A stretch of DNA of 64,000 bases from the NCBI GenBank assembly GCA_903813345.2, contig CAIIXF020000006.1, positions 18,418,348-18,482,347 on the forward strand, in the 5' to 3' direction. The stretch comes from Owenia fusiformis (lineage: Eukaryota > Annelida > Polychaeta > Sabellida > Oweniidae). The position numbers were made by a program, and so were the translations under genes. The notes below the pieces were generated by a model. It ran no database searches and was not told where the DNA came from. It worked only from the letters and a program-made list of their open reading frames with translations. How positions within the stretch are numbered: position 1 is the stretch's first letter; each line of letters begins with the position of its first letter. This document shows positions 5,087 to 63,982 of this stretch, one piece after another.

Positions 5087-6337
5087 GAACATGGAAAGTA
5101 AATAGACATATATTATGAAATTGAGATCTTACCATACCATCTAGTGGACTTTTTGGTAAGGTATTCTTCTTAAATCGCAGTCATTCACTGCCTTATGTAT
5201 AAGGGTCTCTTGTCACGCCTAGCCTTGACCAAGTCGGTCTCTTTTACTATCTTGATTTCTATTATGACCGCCTTGTACCAAAGAGAAAGCCACGTGCTTT
5301 ACCGACTCAATGTTTATGTCGGTAAAATTTGACCAATCAACGACGGCCCTGCAGCGTTAGCTCATTATTATGCACGGTCAAAAACAAGTACACTTTTCGC
5401 CGGGACTTTTCACGAACAAATCTTGCATGAATTAATCATGAAAATACAAATATTTTATCAGATAAATATCAATCAGAGTTTAGTGGATGCCGGAGCATCG
5501 ATCGGTAACCGGAGGTAAGAAGATTTCATCAATAAACGTTGAAACGATCGCTGAATTCAAATGAACATGCTGAGATTCAATCACTGACCGACGACTACAT
5601 GACCCGCTACATTGGACCCCGGGCATTGGACTAGGTCTTCGTGCATTTTCATCGCGAAATCAGTTTTAAATCAACATTGAATAGCATGATTTAATTTACA
5701 TTAATGACTTACATTCCAATGTACATTTAATTACACTGGAAACACTCGATCAGATTGAATTTCAAGTCGGAGACGGGGAGTTTGCTTAGTTTATGCATGT
5801 TAAGCTGATAACGTTTTGATTGGTCAATCAGCCTGAAGTCACACGTCTGTCCACGCGATCTGTAAATCAATTATAGGTTTCGCGATACCCCTGATAGCGT
5901 AGGTATTATGAAAATCTCGAAACCGCTGAATAACTCTGCATCATATCAGCGCAGGTGTATTGGATTGTACAAGGCGGTAATAATTCAAGATCGGATAAGT
6001 AAAAAATACCGACTTGGGTAAGGCTAGTCACGCCTTGTGATGAGATTTGTGTAGTTATCTTGATTGCAGATCAAATCCGTCACTTCTTGTGAGGAGGAAG
6101 TCATTCGTCACTTTTGTGCGAAAAGTTCATCACTTCTTGTGAGAGGAAATGTGTGTCATCACTACTTGTGAGACAAAGTTCATTGTTCATTGAGATGAAA
6201 GTTCTTTATACATCGGCTCTTGTAGAATCCTAGTGGCCCTCTAATCCTTGAGTGAGATTTATCCCCTGAAACAATATAAATAAATATTGTTTACAAAGTA
6301 TAACTGAACATGTAATGTAGGGTAGGGCGAGGTGGGC
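5087..6337. other. DIRS 3' region, non-coding
   Basis: No protein-like open frame. At about 6070-6190 there is a run of degenerate copies of 'gtcactTcTtGTGAGaggaa' (about five, 30-45 bp apart). The rest is unique in this window. Confidence 0.4.
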
Positions 6338-6470
6338 GACATGTATAAAATCTCAGCTACATCTCGTTCATGAAATTGCAATTTCATGGCGAGATTCTTA
6401 TGAAATTGAGAAATTTCAATATCACTCGATGTAGCTTTCGAGTTTATACATTGCCTGTTTAAAGCTAATC

Positions 6471-6860
6471 TCACCTCAAATTGTAGATGAGAAGTCTGTG
6501 ACATCTTTTTTTGTAAAATCTGAAAAAGGTCCTTGCATTTGACCAATTGCCAGTATTTACTATTTGATTTATAGACATTCCTTTGGTCCAGGCCTTTGAC
6601 GTGGAGGCAGCTTTAGTTGAGCGAGCTTTATATGTGTTGGTATCTATGCCCGCCTGTTCCATAGTTGCTTTCAGCCAGTTGGCAATGGTACTACAGGATT
6701 AAAAGGTTTCACATTAGCAATGAAAAGTCTGGACTTTTGGAACTCTGTAGTTCTGAGGTCTGTTGTCCTCGTGTAGTCATGTAGTCCCTCATGTACTTTG
6801 TTACATCTAGCTTGGGGTTTTCTGTGAATTCCTGAAAAATCAGAGTTGTGTATGGTTTAT
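6471..6860 (-). pseudogene. DIRS tyrosine recombinase, C-terminal part
   Basis: The minus frame at 6662-6471 encodes a typical recombinase C terminus: KARSTKAAS (the H/K-x-x-R box position, here ARSTKAA), a WTKGMSINQI stretch, then TGNWSNARTFFRFY, where the final Tyr fits the nucleophile position. Upstream (about 6860-6690) another frame gives ENPKLDVTKYMRDYM-like text that continues the domain, so at least one frameshift separates them near 6690. The enzyme would resolve the element's circular cDNA into the genome. Call based on motif resemblance to DIRS/Ngaro recombinases. Confidence 0.65.
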
Positions 6861-7069
6861 TAGGTTTTGATGGTTTGCATGTACCATCGATGGTTGCTTG
6901 AATCTGAAAACCATTGTCAATATAGTGGGTTTATTTTGCTTAACTCTAAGCCTCTGCATGCACTTGTTAGTGCCATAAGCATTGCTAGTTTATGAGAGAG
7001 AAATATCAATGACATTGTCGTTATTGTTCTGAAATTGCAGATCTGTAGCCATTTATAGTGGAATACAAC

Positions 7070-9166
7070 TTACCTGTTTCGAATAGGTAGGTAAGGAAGT
7101 TGGCTATATTTGCCACAGAGGATTGAAGTGGAGAACAGCCCCGTGCAGAACACCAGCTTTCCCACTTTTCCAGCTGCTGTTGTAAGCAGCTGATGTACCT
7201 TCTCTCCCGGCTTGGAGGAGGACTTTGGTAGTGTTTTTTGAAAACCCCTCTGCTTCATACTGTACCTGACCCTGAGATTCTCCAAGCCCCTAGATGCATT
7301 TTCCCCTCTGATACCATTGGGTGGATTTGCTGTAGGGGTGATTTCAAGAGATTGTCTGATGTTGGGAGAAGTATTGGAATTGCTATTGACATTTGAATTA
7401 GCATGGGGTACCAAGGTTGGTTTTGTCAGATTGGGGCAATCAGAATGATTTCTGCTTGATCCCTCTTTACTTTCTCCAGTACTCTGCCTATAAGGCAGAA
7501 CGGAGGAAGGCAGTGAAGCGGCCTGTTGCTCCAGTTCTGAGTAAATGCGTCGGTTGCCATCGCAAATGGATCTTTCTTCCAACTGATGTATGCGTTTAAC
7601 TGTGCATTCATCCTGTTGGCAAAGAGATCCACTTGTGCTGGTCCCCATATTTTGTTTATTTGGAAGAATATGGATTTCTCCAGCATCCAGTCTGATTGAT
7701 CTTTGAATATTCTGGATGCTGTGTCCGCTATTATTACATTCGACTTCCCCTCCATGAACTCTGCTATAAGAGTGATCTTCCTGGTGAGACAAAAGTCGAA
7801 TATTGTTTTCGTTAGTTCGACAAGGGCTTTTGATCTGGTCCCCCCCAGTTTGTTCAAATGGCTCATTGCTGACATGTTGTCTGTTCTGATTAGGATATGA
7901 ATGTTGGAGAGATTCTTTGAGAATGACTGAATTGCGAAATGTATTGCTTTGAGTTCCAGAAAGTTTATGTGGCATGTTTTCTCTTGAGGGTTCCAATGGC
8001 CCTGTATAATCTCCCCCTTTGAGACGGCCCCTACCTGCTAGGGAACTGTCTGTTGTTATCGTTAGATCGGGTTCTTTTAGTTTTATCGCCCTCCCATTCC
8101 AATGATCTAATTGGGTTATCCACCATGTCAGTTCTTGTTTGACTTCTGAAGTAAGATGGACTGTTGCAGAGTATGGTTGTTTTGACCTTTTAAGACCCTT
8201 TGTTTTTAGAAACTGTAGGTGTCTGTAGTGGAGGGAAGCTGGTAATATTGCCAAGACTGTTGAAGAAAGTGTGCCTATCATTTGGGCCACCTCTGAGAGT
8301 GTGGCTTGTTTCTGAAGATATAGTTCCTTGCATTTCATTTTGATTTTCAATGATTTTTCTATTGGTAGACTGAATGTCAGATTCTGGGAATTGATGATGA
8401 AGCCTAGGTATTCTATTGTTTGTGTGGGCGTTAGAGTTGATTTTTCCCAATTTATCAAGAACCCGAGATTCTGAAGTAGGTAAATTGCTGTTTGAGCTTG
8501 GTTTTTGAGTGCTTTGGGGTGTTTGTTTAGAATTATTAGATCGTCGAGATAGATAATGCACCTGAACCCCAGTTTCCTCATGATTGCCCTGGGCACTTTG
8601 AGAATTTTGGTGAATACCCTTGGGTTGGACCCCAGGCCGAACGGGTGTGTTTTCATTTGGTAGGTTGTGTTTTTCCATTGAAATCGGAGGTATTTCCGAT
8701 GTTTTTTCGCAATTGGAACTGTCAGGAACGCATCCCTCAAATCGACCTTGATCATGAAATCGTTTTGTTCTACCATATGTTTGAGCATTGATATGTTCTC
8801 CATCTTGAAGTGACGGTATTCTACAAAATGGTTGAGAGGTTTGAGGTTTATGATTGTTCTTTTTGACCCGTCTTTTTTCGTTCTTAGGAAGAGATGGGAT
8901 AGAAATTGATCGTTTGATGGGTTTGTTATTTCTATTGACATTTATATTATCTCTTTTGACATTTCCTGACGTTCCATTGCACTGAAGTTTGGCCAGTAAT
9001 GTGTTTTCATTTGGGTGGGGTCTTGCGTAAACTCTAGCATGTAACCCTTGACTGTATTTAAAATGTTCGGATCTGAGGATACTTTCTCCCAATTTGCTAC
9101 AAACCATTTGAGTCTGCCTCCTGTTGGGATGTTGCCCTTGACTTGATTGAAGCCTAGGTTCAACAC
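7070..9166 (-). pseudogene. DIRS reverse transcriptase and RNase H
   Basis: The longest minus frame (8941-7070) begins with RT motifs: FLRTKKDGSKR, INLKPLN, KVDLRDAFLTVPI, FGLGSNPRVFT, then the catalytic YLDDLIIL at about residue 131, and LGFLINWEKS. RNase H begins with TITTDSSLAG (first catalytic Asp), but the frame shifts near 8015; the rest of RNase H and the DIRS-type linker (DNMSAMSHLNKLGG, LFANRMNAQ, LPPFCLIGRVLEK) read in the frame of 7875-7426. An in-frame stop at 8942-8944 separates the RT from its upstream part (9166-8945, with WPNFSAMERQEMSKEI). The original polyprotein is therefore broken by at least one stop and one frameshift. RT type: DIRS, distinct from LINE and Ty3 enzymes. 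Confidence 0.85.
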
Positions 9167-9189
9167 ATACTGACTTTGGATTCGTCTGG

Positions 9190-9715
9190 CATGACTGACC
9201 TGGCTTTGTTTGAGGATAATTTGTTTTTAACATACCTGGATTTCCCTCCTCTGGAGGGTTTGTTTCCCCTGGCACCACCTCTGGAGTTTCCTCTTGATGT
9301 GACACCTCTTTGAGATCCACCTCTTTGTAACGAGCGGTCGTATTTCGCCCCCCCCCCCGACTACTTGCAGATGAGGGGCCCTGGAGAAAGGGCTTGTTGA
9401 AGCTTCTTGAGAAACTTTTCTTTATTTTGTCCATTTCCTGTTTTTCTGAACTCTCTTTCTTGAGAGACTTGTAAAGATTCATTAGTGATTTCTTGCATTT
9501 ATTGAGTTCTTTCTTGTTTTCCTTTAGAAAGGTTTTTGCTTGATTTTTTGAAAACCAAAAATAGGGACAAGAATTTCTACTCTTCTATAAAATGTCAACA
9601 TTTTGAAACTTTGACCGAGTAACAATATTGCTTGGTCAATTAAGTTTCTCAGGATGTTTCTTTCTAGTCTCTCGGTTGAATGAGAAAGTTTCCAAAGGGC
9701 ACCTAAGGGTCCCAT
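9190..9715 (-). pseudogene. DIRS Gag-like/linker coding remnant
   Basis: Minus frames 9715-9524 and 9482-9190 encode a charged, Lys/Ser/Gly-rich region (MNLYKSLKKESSEKQEMDKI, then SRSFNKPFLQGPSSASSRGG) that precedes RT. A C homopolymer at 9348-9358 lies inside the frame and is a likely frameshift site. No zinc knuckle seen. Assigned to the element by position and orientation only. Confidence 0.5.
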
Positions 9716-11445: not shown

Positions 11446-11454
11446 AAAAATATT

Positions 11455-11526
11455 TGACCCCGACGTGATTTGAACACGCAACCTTCTGATCTGGAGTCAG
11501 ACGCGCTACCGTTGCGCCACGGAGTC
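11455..11526 (-). tRNA. tRNA-Trp (anticodon CCA)
   Basis: The minus strand folds as a complete 72-nt tRNA: acceptor 5' GACTCCG pairs with 3' CGGGGTC (one T-G wobble) plus discriminator A; D-arm GGCGCAACGGTAGCGC contains box A; anticodon arm TCTGACTCCAGATCAGA has anticodon CCA (Trp) in a 7-nt loop; T-arm contains GTTCAAATC (box B). No intron. The DIRS terminus begins ~10 bp past its 3' end, so the pol III terminator may lie within or be altered by the element; only short T runs are seen downstream on the minus strand. Confidence 0.95.
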
Positions 11527-12271
11527 AACTGTAACACTGTTCACTAAACGTTGATTAGAAAGAGAGAAAATTAATTTCATCAGATCTGAATTGATTGCCA
11601 AAACAGTTTACGAACAAGAATGCAGTGACATCTATAATTGCAATTAAAGGATATGATTATGGAGCGCAGCAGTTTAAGATGCACCATTGGACTATGAAGG
11701 ATTAAAGTGGGACACTTGATTTCTAATATCTTTATTAGAGGATGTAATAAATGTTTACTTATCTATACCTTTCCATCTGCCAGATTCGGCATCTGATGTT
11801 AAAGGTGTTGATTGACCAATATTGATATTTATCTGAACGGAAAATGCATTACTTTGTATTAGTGTCAATTTTTGGTATCTGTGTGCATAAATTTTCATTG
11901 TCAAATTCTTCTAATATTTTGTGTTTTAAATGGAACGCTGCTTGGGGAGTTATTTTGGATTAAAGGAATCTCCTCGATTGGCAATGTGCCGCTCCGTTTT
12001 TAGTAATACATTAAGAACGTAAACTACAGTTTATTAGTTGTAACATGGACTTCAATCGATATCCTAGGTTCATGGTTGTAATAAGACACACATCATACCA
12101 TTTGATAATGTACTCATGTCTACGTATTATGCACTGTTTTTGTAGTTACATACTATTAATTATTCCCTTTTTTACAAAGAAATTCAGATTTTGATCATAA
12201 GTAGGGGCTCAAGCGTAAATACATTGAAATTATTTTGTTCGAAAGTTTCAAAGACGAGTGATGAAAGTGTA
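11527..12271. other. Intergenic, nothing recognised
   Basis: AT-rich unique sequence upstream of the tRNA gene; no long frames, tandem repeats or TIR pairs noticed. Confidence 0.5.
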
Positions 12272-24381: not shown

Positions 24382-25764
24382 TGCCTTTGTTCCGTCAACC
24401 ATGGAGCATTTGCCACAACATCCAAGAGGTAAATCATGGACCGAGAAAATGAATGATTTCCTTGTTAGTTCCGGAAGTTTCAATACGAAAAATTACCGAA
24501 CATATGTGAAAACCGAATATTTGTTCGTTGTTTTCACGATTTACAGGTTCGTTTGTTCTTCAATGTTTTGGTCTAAATTATAAAGCATCACCAACAGGTC
24601 TTATTCTATTAATCGACTAATACAGCAGACGGCTCATATTTCTACGTAGCATTTCATTCAGACCAATAGTGGGAGTGTAGATCACGCAGTTTCGTTCGTT
24701 GCGTACTTCACTTGAAATTGGTAATTTTAAATATTGACTACTTCACTTAGCTTGGCGGATGTAGAACATTGCTTAATATTCTTTTAATTTTCACACCAGA
24801 CATGCTTGGTTGACATGTCAACAAAGTAAAGTTCAAGGGTCAATGCGTTATTTCGTGATAACTACAACGCCTTCCCGGAAGTCAACATTGATGAAAAATG
24901 AAAAAGTCGGAAAAGCATTTACACTAATTTCTATCAAATGCTATGTTTATGCATCATCATCGACGCAACAAAGGTGATATGGTTTCATTAAGATCCGGGT
25001 TCTAACCTTTAGAAGGTAAGTCAGACTTCCAAACGTCAGCTAACTCTTACATTTAGCATGTTAGCGACGAAGTCAGGCCATGAAAAAAGTAGTAGTAGAG
25101 TAATAGGGGGGTTCTCTGAGACGATCCTTAATGATTTATTGTTTTTCTTTTCATTTATGAGTTTGCAGTTTAAATTTTCTGACCATTTGGTAACGTCAAG
25201 GGCTCATGAGCCCATCGTAACGCTAAATAAAACACTGCTGTATATATGTTATCAACGGTATCAATGTAGGATTCAGGAAGGAATAGAATAATAAGTTGAA
25301 TGTCATATGAGGAATGTCATATATATTTTTTATAATTAGCTGCAAAATTGGCATTTGTGAATTTTATTTAACATTACTACAATTAAAATTATCTTGCAGG
25401 AATCCATGCATCAACTGTTCAAGTCTTTATTTGAGGCAGAATATACATATTGTTGTCCATCGAACATGGCTTGTTCATGTTTTTGTGGGCTTTGCCTGGA
25501 AACTCTGTAAAATCACTTCAATTCAAAAAACCATTTGGAATCCCAGAGAGCAATGTTAATGTGGGCCACACCCCTTCACCATGGGCTTTCAACTCTAATT
25601 GAAAGTCCATGCCTTCACGTACATTTTGATTTTCATGTACATGTATTGTGCTTGAATGAGGGATTGCCTTTTGTTGTATTATGGAATGTAGTCATTGATT
25701 ACACCAATGGGGCTACAACATGTATGCTGCTAAAAGTACCTAAAATAACTACATTTATTTTCAG
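24382..25764. other. Region upstream of the Fic exon
   Basis: A FICD-type N-terminal exon (membrane anchor) should lie here or in the gap but was not recognised. A short ATG segment at 24401-24430 is followed by a possible donor (AG|gtaaat) but is not FICD-like. An acceptor-like tatcttgcag ends at about 25399, but no following frame matches the family. Confidence 0.4.
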
Positions 25765-26870
25765 AACTGAAAACTGAAGCTCTAAATTGTCTCAACCAAG
25801 CAAGAGAGATGGACTCCCAAGGAAAACATGATAAAGCTATAAAACTGTTTGAACATGCACTTCGCCTTGATCCTCAACATGCAGATATACTGAACATGTA
25901 TGGGGAATTTCTAGAGAAACAGGTGGAAGACATTGTACTTGCTGAGCACATGTACACAAAAGCCTTAATGGTCAGTCCTAGTCATTCAAAAGCTTTGACC
26001 AACAGAGAGCGAACGTTACCTCTGGTGGAGGAGATAGATCAAATGAGGTTTAATATGATCGATAAAAAGCGTGATCAACTTTACAAAGTACCAGAGAATG
26101 ATGCTGGATTAAGACGAACTAAAAAAGAGAACTATTTTAAACATGTTCACCATACTACAGCTTTAGAGGGAAATACTATGACGCTTGCCCAAACACGCTC
26201 TATCATAGAAAACAGAATGGCTATTGGAGGGAAATCAATCATGGAACATAATGAAATTATTGGTTTAGATGCTGCTTTAAGTTTTGTCAATAACTCTTTA
26301 GTACACAGAATAGGTTCTATTACAATTGAGGATATTCTAGAGATTCACAAACGTGTTTTAGGGTTTGTGGATCCTGTCGAAGCAGGACGTTTCAGGAGTT
26401 CTCAAGTTTTTGTGGGCAACCATGTTCCCCCTCAAGCAGATGAAGTGATATTTTATATGGAAGAGTTTATAGAGTGGCTTAACTCTAGAGCGGCACTAGA
26501 CCTTCATCCCATAGAATTAGCTGCCCTAGCTCATTATAAACTAGTCTTCATTCACCCTTTCTATGATGGAAATGGCCGAACATCCCGGTTACTCATGAAC
26601 CTTATCCTAATGCAAGCAGGCTACCCGCCAATCATTATAAAAGTCGAAGAAAAGCATCTATATTATGAATATCTCGAGACTGCAAATGCTGGTGATGTAA
26701 GACCATTTATACGATTTATAGCTCGTATAACTGATGATACACTTGATGAGTATCTGTGGTCTTGCATGGAGAGGGGGTCTGGCTCTGGTAGTGCAATCAA
26801 TGGAAAGAACCCACAGATTTCAGTTCCAGATGATGGCAAAACTATCATAGTTGAACACGATGATATGTAA
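25765..26870 (+). CDS. FICD: Fic-domain AMP-transferase (FICD/HYPE type), C-terminal exon
   Basis: A large terminal exon (acceptor tattttcag; stop TAA at 26868-26870) encoding about 368 residues. It opens with tetratricopeptide-like helices (ALNCLNQAREMDSQGKHDKA, KLFEHALRLDPQHADILN, MYTKALMVSPSHSKAL), then RTLPLVEEID, the linker helix, the inhibitory motif TALEGN (Glu at ~120 counting from the Met at 25809), and the Fic core HPFYDGNGRTSRLLMN (catalytic His ~249). In animals FICD sits in the ER membrane facing the lumen and both attaches AMP to and removes it from the chaperone BiP; the inhibitory Glu governs the switch, so its presence suggests the same dual activity. Conserved residues upstream of the first Met (LKTEALNCLNQARE) show that the exon continues from an earlier coding exon carrying the membrane anchor, which is not seen. 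The C terminus ends IIVEHDDM. Confidence 0.93.
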
Positions 26871-30720: not shown

Positions 30721-31769
30721 CCATTTTGTAACCCATTTTGTGTACCATCCAAATGAATCCAAATCCAGATGAGCATGACCGAACTCAAAATTCGAACTTC
30801 CAAGATTATTTTGGAATCCTTACATTTGACGCAAATCATTCTTATGCGAGTCGCTGAATAATTTTTGGGAATTAAAGAAATGTTTTTGTATTACAATAAA
30901 ACCTATGCATACTGAACTTCTATAAAGCCACAAAGGTTGCTTATTGTTGACAGTTAGTGTTCACTACAGAGTTATACAGATGTCAGTGGTTTGTGTGCAG
31001 TTTGTGTGCTGAGAACTAGAAATGGGCATTTACATTGCCATATCGCACGCGCACTCACTCCATTGAGTTTTGAAAATTTCACTCATATTTGTAATTTGCC
31101 TCGTCGCTAATATAAAAATTTGACTCGTCAGACTATTTTTTATTCGCCTCACAAATAAGTTTAAAACGCCCATTGGCTTTAACTATCTTTCCACTCATGC
31201 TTATTAACGCAAAGAAATATAATATATTTTGTTGTTAAATGCATTATGATCGCGAAATATAAGGAATAACTTCACCGTTTTACTGCTCAATATCTGTTGG
31301 ATTTTCCTTCTCATAATTCAAAGAACGTGTGTTTTCTCGGCGGTTTTGAAAATGCACTCTTGACACTTTGTTAGGGGAACTGAAATCGCTAAATATGTCA
31401 GAATAGTAGTGTTTTACAAACAATCCTCTAAACGTAAAGATACAAATGCGATTATTTTCAGAACATAGAAGTCTGAGACGTTAACGGATTCCGTAAATCA
31501 TTAAATGACATAAGACATGTTCGAGTCCGTGTCGTAATATTAGAGAATTTAAGCTAGCGATATTTTTCACAACGTAACCGTGAACGCAAATAGCCAATGA
31601 ATCAATACAATAATGTACAATGTACATGTATATACTGTACTTATAGCGCGCATACAAAACAAGGGCTACTTCAAAACAAGCGTCTCCTTCAAATACGCGA
31701 TCGACTTCAGAGCTGTGTTTAGAACGGGAGATTTGCAATTTCACGTTGGTGTCAACGCCGGAATCATTG
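30721..31769. other. Intergenic, nothing recognised
   Basis: Unique AT-rich sequence up to the 31770 transposon; a few frames of ~100 codons without family resemblance. Confidence 0.45.
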
Positions 31770-33061
31770 CACGGTGTATAACCCAAACGCTCCTACATGC
31801 ACGACGGAGCGTTTCATTTACGCGGAAACGCTCCGGAGAGAAATAAAATGGCGGCTAATGAAGATTCCACTATGACCGTAAGTATTGTTCCTCTTGTTTC
31901 TCTTACATATCATATGTTATGGTGAAATATTATGTACCATTCGATGAACAATACCGTGAGCAAAGATCTGATTTATTCAACTTCTGGTGGTAAACTGTTA
32001 TTTGCTTGATCAAAGCTCCGTAGTGTAGATCGAACGAATCTGAAGATGACGATTTGACCACAAATTACGAATTAAACTAGTATTTCTATGAAAACGTTAA
32101 TCTTTCTGTTAAAGTAGTAGATCACAAACTCGTATATTCTCATTTCCTAAAATCCCAGTCCAAATCCATTACTTGTTCTCGAGAAATCGCTTGTTTTCCT
32201 CGAAACGCTCTGTCGATTTAGAACACAATTTTAGAAATGCTCTTACCATTTTGTTTTGATATAATTTTCAGATTATAAGAGAAGAGTTTCGAATCGAATC
32301 TATCTCTCAAAAACGTGTTGTACTTGTTAGGCAAATTGAAACATCTGAACCTGGTGGTGCTAAACGTGCAACTAGCTGATTTAAGCCTACATTAGATGGT
32401 GTCATGCCTACATATGTGCTAAATCATATAACTATAGAAAAAAACGAAAATTTATATGTGAATTAATCTTTCTTCTATTGATGCCTAGGGGTATAATAGA
32501 TCTTTTCTTTCTCTTCCTGAAAAGAAAAGGCAAGCTATATATTTCCTAAACTGATCTAGACTACCGGAGCGTTTCCAGTTCACTGTGTTAACCAGATCGG
32601 AGCGTTTCTTGAATATGAGAATGTCATCATTTTTAAGACTGGATTTTCGGTCATCAAATCACTATTACGATAATGTATGGTGCGTTGAAGCATTGGAATT
32701 TGACTAAAATATACGTTGGTGCTCTAATCTTAGCTCAACTAATCACATGTATCGACAAAAGGGGTTTTGACCGGTAGAATGACAAATACGTTTTTGAATT
32801 TTGATAACTATACTGCTTCGTACAGCTCTTCCTAATTGCTTCAAACGTCAACAGTCAGCCAAGTACAACATGAATATCACACCCATCGAATGGTATACTC
32901 GAAATATGTAACTCATACCTCTTATTCTCATTATTGGGGAAATCGTCAGACGGCTCATCATTCCCGCCAGTCAGTTTTCCTACTCCGGAGCGTTTCTTTG
33001 TTTAATTTCAGTAATGAAACGCTCCGTCGTGCATGTAGGAGCGTTTGGGTTATACACCGTG
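31770..33061. mobile_element. DNA transposon, 1292 bp, perfect 49-bp TIRs
   Basis: Ends CACGGTGTATAACCCAAACG and its exact complement; the match is perfect for the first 49 bp on each side. A 5-bp direct repeat CATTG flanks it (31765-31769 and 33062-33066). The motif GGAGCGTTT, in either orientation, recurs at about 31787, 31807, 31826, 32203, 32569, 32599, 32986, 33019 and 33038, denser near the ends, like subterminal transposase-binding sites. It contains no transposase frame but holds a two-exon mini-ORF. The perfect TIRs imply recent movement. Superfamily unknown. Confidence 0.85.
31848..32379 (+). CDS. Candidate two-exon mini-ORF inside transposon (45 aa)
   Basis: Exon 1 (31848-31877) starts ATG in a good context (aaataaaATGG) just inside the left TIR and encodes MAANEDSTMT, followed by a consensus donor gtaagt. 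Exon 2 (32272-32379) follows the acceptor ttttgatataattttcag and continues in frame with IIREEFRIESISQKRVVLVRQ, ending ...GAKRATS and TGA. The product is a 45-residue charged peptide of no family I recognise. It could be the captured first exons of a host gene, a remnant of the element's own transposase N terminus, or chance. The ATGGCGGCT start and clean splice signals argue for descent from a genuine gene. Confidence 0.4.
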
Positions 33062-33224
33062 CATTGTACTCATGTTTATTGAATGATGCACAATATAATG
33101 CTTTCTGAAGAAAATGATGTGTGTCATACATGTTTTAGCTCCAAATAATTTACGAAACGAGCCTGTCATTAAAATATGATCATAGAAAACTAGCTATATA
33201 ACTATCAATGGCATATTGCACATA

Positions 33225-34308
33225 CGAGGGGTGATCAATAAGTAATGGACGCTTTTTTACACAGATACTTTTTATGGATCAATCCCTTTAATTTTCCTTC
33301 CAGTGATACATCATTCAATTATCTATCAATTCTGAAGATTTGAAGACAAAATATATAATACATGTTGATATATCCTTATTTCCGTGAAGGAGGTACAGGT
33401 ACCCTGGACCGACATTTGCGTCACATATTCAGTTTTTAGCCAGTTTGGAAAATTTCAGTTAGATTTAAACTTTTTTATATGCAACAAGTATTGTGTTGTT
33501 TAAAATATTTTGCTGACTGGTAACACACAAACAGCAAGTATTGTGATGTCAGAGTGTTGTATGGTCGGGGTTTGCAGGTCAATTTGGGTAAGCATGTTGG
33601 AAGAAGGGGTTGGTGAGAAAAGGAAACACCCTACTCAATATGGACAATGCACCTGCCCACAGATCTCAAAATATTCAGAAAACAATATCCCTGGACCTCA
33701 AAATTGAGCCCTTGGCCAATGCACCGTATTGTCCAGATCTGCCCACGTGTGACTTATTTATTCCTATACTACTTATTTCTATAGGGAAGGGACGCAGGTT
33801 TATTGACATTGATGAAATAAAACAACCTGTGCAACTACATCTTGCTACCATGTCAGAGAATGGATTCAGCCTTGTCTCACAATCTTGAGGTAAGAGGATG
33901 AGGAATTGTATACATGTAGCACTTGGTGGAACCTATGTAGAGGGCCCTTTAGAATGAATGTGGCATTAATGCTACATAGTGATGATAAAATATTCAAAAT
34001 CAACTATGGCATAACAAAATGGGGTAATTCATGACCATAATGGTTTGTTTTGTTCAGCCTGCATTCAACTGCGTTGCATGTTAAACAAGCTAAAATAGCT
34101 TCAGAATGTTTGACGTCACGTCGGTCCCGGGGTACCTATCCTCCTTCATGGAAATAAAGATATATCAAAATATGTAACATGTTTTGTTTTCAAATCTTCA
34201 GAGTTGATAGATAATTATATGATGTATCACTGGTAAGAAAATCGAAGGTATTGGTCTATAAAAAGCATCCGAGTAAAAAAGCGTCCATTACTGATTGATC
34301 ACCCCACG
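33225..34308 (+). mobile_element. Mariner-type transposon with ~210-bp TIRs, defective
   Basis: Ends CGAGGGGTGATCAATAAGTA and its complement CCCCACG, each next to TA (33223-33224, 34309-34310). The arms remain similar for about 210 bp ('aatggacgcttttttac', 'agtgatacatcat', 'gaaggaggta'). Total 1084 bp, too short for a full element plus such long arms. Interior: a transposase remnant. Confidence 0.85.
33510..33888 (+). pseudogene. Mariner transposase remnant
   Basis: The frame at 33610-33888 retains the second catalytic region LLNMDNAPAHRS (Asp) and the third PYCPDLPTCDLF (Asp), about 34 residues apart, as in mariner D,D34D enzymes, then KGRRFIDIDEIK near the C terminus. The DNA-binding N terminus and the first catalytic Asp are missing or unrecognisable. 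Not functional. Confidence 0.8.
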
Positions 34309-34310
34309 TA

Positions 34311-35078
34311 TATGTGATGTGTATATGTAACTGACTAAGTAAACACTGTAACCGAACGATTATTTATGTGAGAAAACTACACATGCATTTGTATAGGGCA
34401 ACTTGTGCGTACACTGGGTTGACGTTTCGATTTTATATGAAATGCCGCTTTAGTCTCTATTTGAAGATAAATATAGTTAAAATATAAACACGATCTTAAA
34501 AGTCGTGAATATTGTTCCACGGTGTAGGCTTAGAATGGATTGGTCACTCCAGATTTCGGCAAATTTCTTGCATTTTGTCAATTAATGACAATTACCATGA
34601 ACTATGATGGAATGATCCCCAAAGTAGAACCGTGGGTAGTATGATCGAAGAAGAATATCTTAGGTAGAAGACTAGAAGTCAAGCCGTTGTGTTCGTTTGT
34701 ATCGGACTTGTATAGACTGGAGCCCGGGGACTGGAGACGGCGTCACTTATTGCCGGGACCTTTTGCCTTTTGTTCCATCCTGACGACTCCATTCTCTTAC
34801 AAAACAAGTGCAAATCGTTGTTAAATCACAAGTCCGGAAAAATACCCACTGTTAAGTAGTGCTGTTAAGACTGATTTAGGCCGACTGGGTTTTTCAATGC
34901 AATCCCCATCCTTGAGGGTGCCATGTTGCATACGCTTCAAATCGTTCGCAGCCGTGTCATTGATCAATGGTATAAGCGATCAATTACGCATGCGCATATG
35001 GATATATTTTCGCCATATTTGAAAATTGGAGGAGGCGAACTTTGAATACATGCACAGTTTGTAAAGAAAACTGCCAAA
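34311..35078 (+). promoter_or_regulatory. Dynamin upstream region with NRF1-like site
   Basis: Unique, locally less AT-rich sequence before the dynamin ATG. ACGCATGCGCA at 34986-34996, ~85 bp upstream of the ATG, matches the palindromic NRF1 promoter element; CCATATTTGA follows at about 35014. No TATA box is evident. The transcription start is not determinable; the 5' UTR probably lies within the last ~80 bp. Confidence 0.4.

Positions 35079-63982
<28,904 letters not shown>

Follow-up and report, generated by a model that had tools for sequence, protein, structure and literature searches.

Transib elements and RAG-like elements are described as having ends that begin with CAC and as generating 5-bp target-site duplications (PMC7204232, PMC4411706), and the catalytic core of the vertebrate RAG recombinase is reported to have evolved from a Transib transposase (PMC4411706). 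Most Transib families are credited with symmetric terminal inverted repeats (TIRs) that resemble the RSS heptamer and show little or no similarity to the nonamer; in the same account the targets of ProtoRAG, Transib and RAG are biased to G+C (PMC8289069). Of the five heptamers that mammalian RAG used most in one assay, four take the form CACNGTG (PMC9723617). More broadly, CMCT lineages are described as having mostly CA..TG termini and duplications of 2–5 bp (PMC12730594). Among hAT elements, hAT5 is listed as making 5-bp duplications (PMC12730594), and the Ac transposase is reported to bind multiple subterminal AAACGG repeats (PMC3260210).

The window, that is, the whole stretch of DNA analyzed here, is 64,000 nt long and contains at 31770–33061 a DNA transposon of 1,292 bp without a recognized transposase (Table 1). 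The 49 bases at its left end and the 49 at its right end are perfect reverse complements of each other (49/49 identity), as a preliminary description of this DNA had stated, and the flanking CATTG duplication reported there is found on both sides. Perfect inverted repeats of at least 20 bp, with arms 100–6000 bp apart, number 13 in the window: this pair is the second longest (51 bp in that ranking, two bases of the duplication included). A repeat finder returns arms of 54 nt at 98%, because the CATTG duplication is itself nearly its own reverse complement; there is therefore some freedom in placing the end of the element. Shifted boundaries give flank matches of 2, 3 or 4 bp, and a 5-bp match arises only when the ends are placed at CAC. 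Among 15 CACNGTG pairs lying 200–6000 bp apart in the window, this is the only one with identical 5-bp flanks.

The element had also been called young. Its age is only loosely bounded: zero mismatches over 49 positions allow up to 5.9% divergence between the arms at 95%. None of the six reading frames of the element matched Pfam at an E-value threshold of 1, and thus no transposase is recognized in it, as had been claimed. No second copy was seen and nothing elsewhere in the window matched significantly. A 24-mer from the TIR start and a 26-mer from the inner TIR each had no exact match in viral_contigs, a viral collection that is uninformative on animals, and a TIR 19-mer matched once in the prokaryotic genome_contigs, on an Oceanospirillum contig, where about two chance matches are estimated in 257 billion bases.

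Table 1. Features of the 31770–33061 element and its flanks, in window coordinates.
Feature	Positions	Strand	Remark
Left target-site duplication	31765..31769	.	CATTG
Left TIR	31770..31818	+	49 bp; opens CACGGTG; holds inverted pair of GGAGCGTTT sites
GGAGCGTTT site	31785..31793	-	in left TIR
GGAGCGTTT site	31806..31814	+	in left TIR
GGAGCGTTT site	31826..31834	-	left subterminal; 11-bp inverted repeat with TIR site at 31806
AAAATGGCGGC	31845..31855	+	over ATG; fits AANATGGCGGC, a YY1-type consensus
Putative exon 1	31848..31877	+	MAANEDSTMT
Putative intron	31878..32271	+	GTAAGT...TTTTCAG; 7/12 pyrimidines before CAG
One-mismatch site AGAGCGTTT	32203..32211	-	
Putative exon 2	32272..32379	+	35 codons and TGA (stop 32377-32379); chance-expected length
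GGAGCGTTT site	32566..32574	+	internal
GGAGCGTTT site	32599..32607	+	internal
GGAGCGTTT site	32987..32995	+	right subterminal; inverted repeat with TIR site at 33017
Right TIR	33013..33061	-	49 bp; perfect inverse of left TIR
GGAGCGTTT site	33017..33025	-	in right TIR
GGAGCGTTT site	33038..33046	+	in right TIR
Right target-site duplication	33062..33066	.	CATTG

The motif GGAGCGTTT occurs exactly at eight sites, all of them within the element and none elsewhere in the window (0.11 expected); none of 100 shuffles contained eight or more. The preliminary description counted at least nine: eight are exact, but the ninth holds only if one mismatch is accepted. Six places carry an exact copy of a longer form, CGGAGCGTTTC. 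At each end a pair of sites within the TIR is followed inward by a third, subterminal one, with orientation alternating along the three; the interior holds two exact sites together with the mismatched one. At both ends the TIR and subterminal sites can form a hairpin (z -3.0 and -4.0; 1/200 shuffles as stable in each case), which is not separate evidence because it follows from the inverted motif pair. Arrays of this sort are bound by the transposase in Ac (PMC3260210), and the GGAGCGTTT array may have the same role. A text search of the literature for CACGGTGTATAACCC returned no match.

The superfamily had been left unnamed. Each terminus reads CACGGTG, the form in which Hztransib may also end, and so opens with CAC and resembles the RSS heptamer, agreeing with the RAG heptamer CACAGTG at six of seven positions and with CACNGTG at all seven. 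A text search of the literature for Transib together with CACGGTG gave no match. The best fit to the RSS nonamer is 6/9 with a 4-bp spacer at both ends (the right end also gives 6/9 at 53 bp), and there is therefore no 12/23 signal. Together the CAC ends and the 5-bp duplication point to Transib and the CMCT clade, although an assignment made without a transposase is a lead rather than membership. We put at about an even chance the reading that the element is a gutted or internally deleted relative of a Transib-type element, non-autonomous and moved by cut-and-paste. Against it stand the absence of a second copy from the window, the absence of a transposase, the A+T-rich duplication (CATTG is 2/5 G+C, in a single insertion), the motif array and the 6-bp duplication of a neighboring element. 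The reported absence of autonomous Transibs from most sequenced animal genomes (PMC4411706) also counts against it, as may the single Transib ORF element listed in one survey, whose group is molluscs (PMC10294476). A more specific version strikes us as improbable: that the element represents an undescribed lineage related to Transib, with a transposase that recognizes a RAG-like CACNGTG heptamer as well as paired inverted repeats arrayed subterminally.

Under the Transib-type reading, a transposase made elsewhere would act on the element in trans. After binding to the TIRs and to the GGAGCGTTT sites close to the two ends, it would cut beside the CAC triplets, and insertion with a 5-bp stagger would leave CATTG on both sides.

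Another TIR element, 3,210 bp long, lies in the window at 35804–39013. Its ends are CACTGGGG, its TIRs are ∼270–280 bp long (88% over 283 aligned columns), and it is bounded by a 6-bp duplication, GTACAT, within a GTACAT-rich flank. Eight copies of GATGCAACAACAC are found in it and nowhere else in the window; at each end two of these are arranged as a palindromic pair. Seven ORFs lying within this element or overlapping it gave no Pfam match above cut-off, the two weak matches having E values of 0.065 and 0.094. Both of its TIRs contain AAGATGGC followed by ACTTCCGG (at 35847 and 38963), which we take to be YY1- and ETS-like. The pair recalls AAAATGGCGGC near the left end of the 31770–33061 element; AAGATGGC and ACTTCCGG each occur at two other places in the window.

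Other repeats and genes share the window. Just downstream of the 31770–33061 element lies a mariner-like element (33219–34314), whose inverted ends agree at 85% over 196 columns. Its stretch at 33592–33885 may be what is left of a transposase: it matches SETMAR and Mos1 weakly (E 0.035–0.084) and has no Pfam match. A tandem array at 771–2071, with units of roughly 135–165 bp, has a related inverted stretch at 40568–40899, about 39 kb off. Overlapping long ORFs at 6262–9584 on the minus strand have the appearance of a DIRS-type retrotransposon; two were tested and gave no Pfam match. A tandem repeat at 58513–59191 (∼42-bp unit) adjoins a dynamin exon and is open in two plus-strand frames and one minus-strand frame. 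The window further contains a tRNA-Trp gene (11454–11527, minus strand), a FICD-like gene (25749–26867; best PDB match FICD, E 1.7e-133), dynamin exons and a reverse transcriptase ORF. The host is probably an animal.

Much of the initial interest in the 31770–33061 element came from a spliceable two-exon mini-gene encoding 45 residues. The letters exist: the ATG, the GTAAGT, the TTTTCAG and the 45-codon join are all present (Table 1). Their significance was assessed with dinucleotide shuffles, scored for a spliceable ORF of at least 45 codons having a GTAAGT donor and a YAG acceptor with at least 6/12 pyrimidines. Of 1,000 full shuffles, 274 had GTAAGT on the plus strand and 85 had a qualifying ORF there; counting either strand raised the ORF figure to 154, and 29 had one whose start fell no more than 100 nt from an end. 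Stricter acceptors were applied to sets of 500 shuffles, with counts given as plus strand, either strand and within 100 nt of an end. For the GTAAGT donor these were 22, 58 and 8 at a minimum of 7/12 pyrimidines, 26, 49 and 5 at 8/12, and 13, 30 and 5 at 9/12; for a looser donor they were 132, 265 and 63, then 92, 174 and 38, and finally 58, 119 and 23 at the same three thresholds. The join originally proposed is recovered at 7/12 and lost at 8 or 9. When exon 1 and its donor were held fixed and the remaining interior shuffled, 729 of 1,000 shuffles still gave at least 45 residues, and ORF length therefore carries no evidential weight. Demanding exactly TTTTCAG lowered the figure to 7/1,000, a count for an acceptor chosen after the fact. 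In the real element the one GTAAGT allows 12 such joins: nine begin at an in-frame ATG in the TIR (31797) and three at 31848.

What the mini-gene might represent is best judged alongside the readings of the element as a whole. It had been proposed that this is a Pack-type element that captured the start of a host gene with its promoter, or an element encoding a small protein of its own. The observations that suit such a reading concern exon 1. Its ATG lies in AAAATGGCGGC, of which this is the sole copy in the window (0.08 expected; at least one copy in 8/100 window shuffles) and which fits the YY1-type consensus AANATGGCGGC. YY1 motifs are reported to be enriched in the sequence immediately downstream of human promoters (PMC8384218), and the position of AAAATGGCGGC over the ATG counts in favor of a real 5′ end. 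GTAAGT follows 30 nt on, and the near-end ORF is infrequent among the shuffles, both in the full set and with the stricter acceptor: a mildly unusual position, before allowing for the free choice of features. Against this, with exon 1 taken as given chance is expected to produce a joined ORF of this length, the 45-residue product has no match in Pfam or PDB, no AATAAA or ATTAAA (the two hexamers tested) follows exon 2 on the plus strand of the element, and the rest of the window holds no significant match. The product is probably not a functional protein, the mini-gene is not well supported, and we consider capture of a host gene start, or a small protein of the element's own, very unlikely. 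The ATG exon and GTAAGT may be all that is left of the 5′ end of a partner's transposase gene, the rest having been lost, or a chance feature; the former is the simplest reading of exon 1.

Two further alternatives concern the lineage of the element. Common membership with the 35804–39013 element in an undescribed or unassigned lineage, marked by CAC at the ends, a palindromic pairing of motifs within the TIR and duplications of 5–6 bp, is possible though doubtful. Both elements open with CAC, both carry an inverted motif pair in the TIR with more copies inward, and the exact motifs of each are absent elsewhere in the window; however, only two elements are compared, they differ in motif and in the lengths of both TIR and duplication, and the GTACAT-rich flank means that the 6-bp match may be partly fortuitous. 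Rather unlikely, in our judgment, is a non-autonomous hAT5-type element in which the GGAGCGTTT array represents subterminal transposase-binding repeats. The 5-bp CATTG duplication is of the right length, the array is comparable to the AAACGG array of the hAT element Ac, and the 6-bp duplication of the neighboring element would suit hAT6. hAT ends are usually CAR, whereas the third base here is C, and the TIRs, perfect over 49 bp, are much longer than those of Mar, which ends CAG(G/A)GGTAGGC, and Vege (11 and 12 bp). No end sequence for hAT5 itself was found in the literature on hAT5 and hAT6, and that on ‘Lanisha’ yielded no end rule that decides the superfamily.

Several other groups were considered and rejected. 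CACTA/EnSpm elements have CAC..GTG termini and subterminal repeats, as does this element. The duplication expected of them is 3 bp (PMC12730594), which is matched here only if the TIRs start GCAC. Ginger1 elements are described as having 5′ ends of the form TGTNR (PMC2836005), whereas the ends here read CACGG, and metazoan Ginger2 makes 4-bp duplications against the 5 bp found here, a 4-bp match arising only if the TIRs start CGGTG. Dictyostelium TDD-4 and TDD-5 are reported to make 5-bp duplications (PMC2836005), a comparison made on duplication length. RAGL and ProtoRAG share the CAC start and 5-bp duplication, and non-autonomous forms are reported from a pearl oyster (PMC7204232); the protostome RAGL TIR consensus CACTWMCAAACKTYKBB is matched at only 5 of 17 positions, and the AAA at positions 8–10 is absent.

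The element is thus of an ordinary, non-autonomous kind, with ends that suggest the Transib/RAG branch. Active Transibs are reported to be rare. If the Transib assignment is correct, a non-autonomous family of fairly recent age whose ends are heptamer-like would imply that such a transposase acted in the host lineage, and would provide clean end sequences with which to find the partner transposase. Membership in hAT5 or some other known group would instead make it a non-autonomous transposon of an ordinary sort.

Comparison with Transib brings out both sides of the assignment. The CAC start, the heptamer-like terminus and the 5-bp duplication are common to both, and the symmetric, heptamer-like, nonamer-poor TIRs of most Transib families resemble the ends described here. 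On the side of difference, no transposase is recognized in the element, and its duplication, in a single insertion, is G+C-poor. It also bears a subterminal repeat array, a feature not described for Transib in the literature consulted. If the undescribed Transib-related lineage were real, it would combine the end chemistry of Transib and RAG with a mode of recognition, by arrays, that is familiar from hAT elements.
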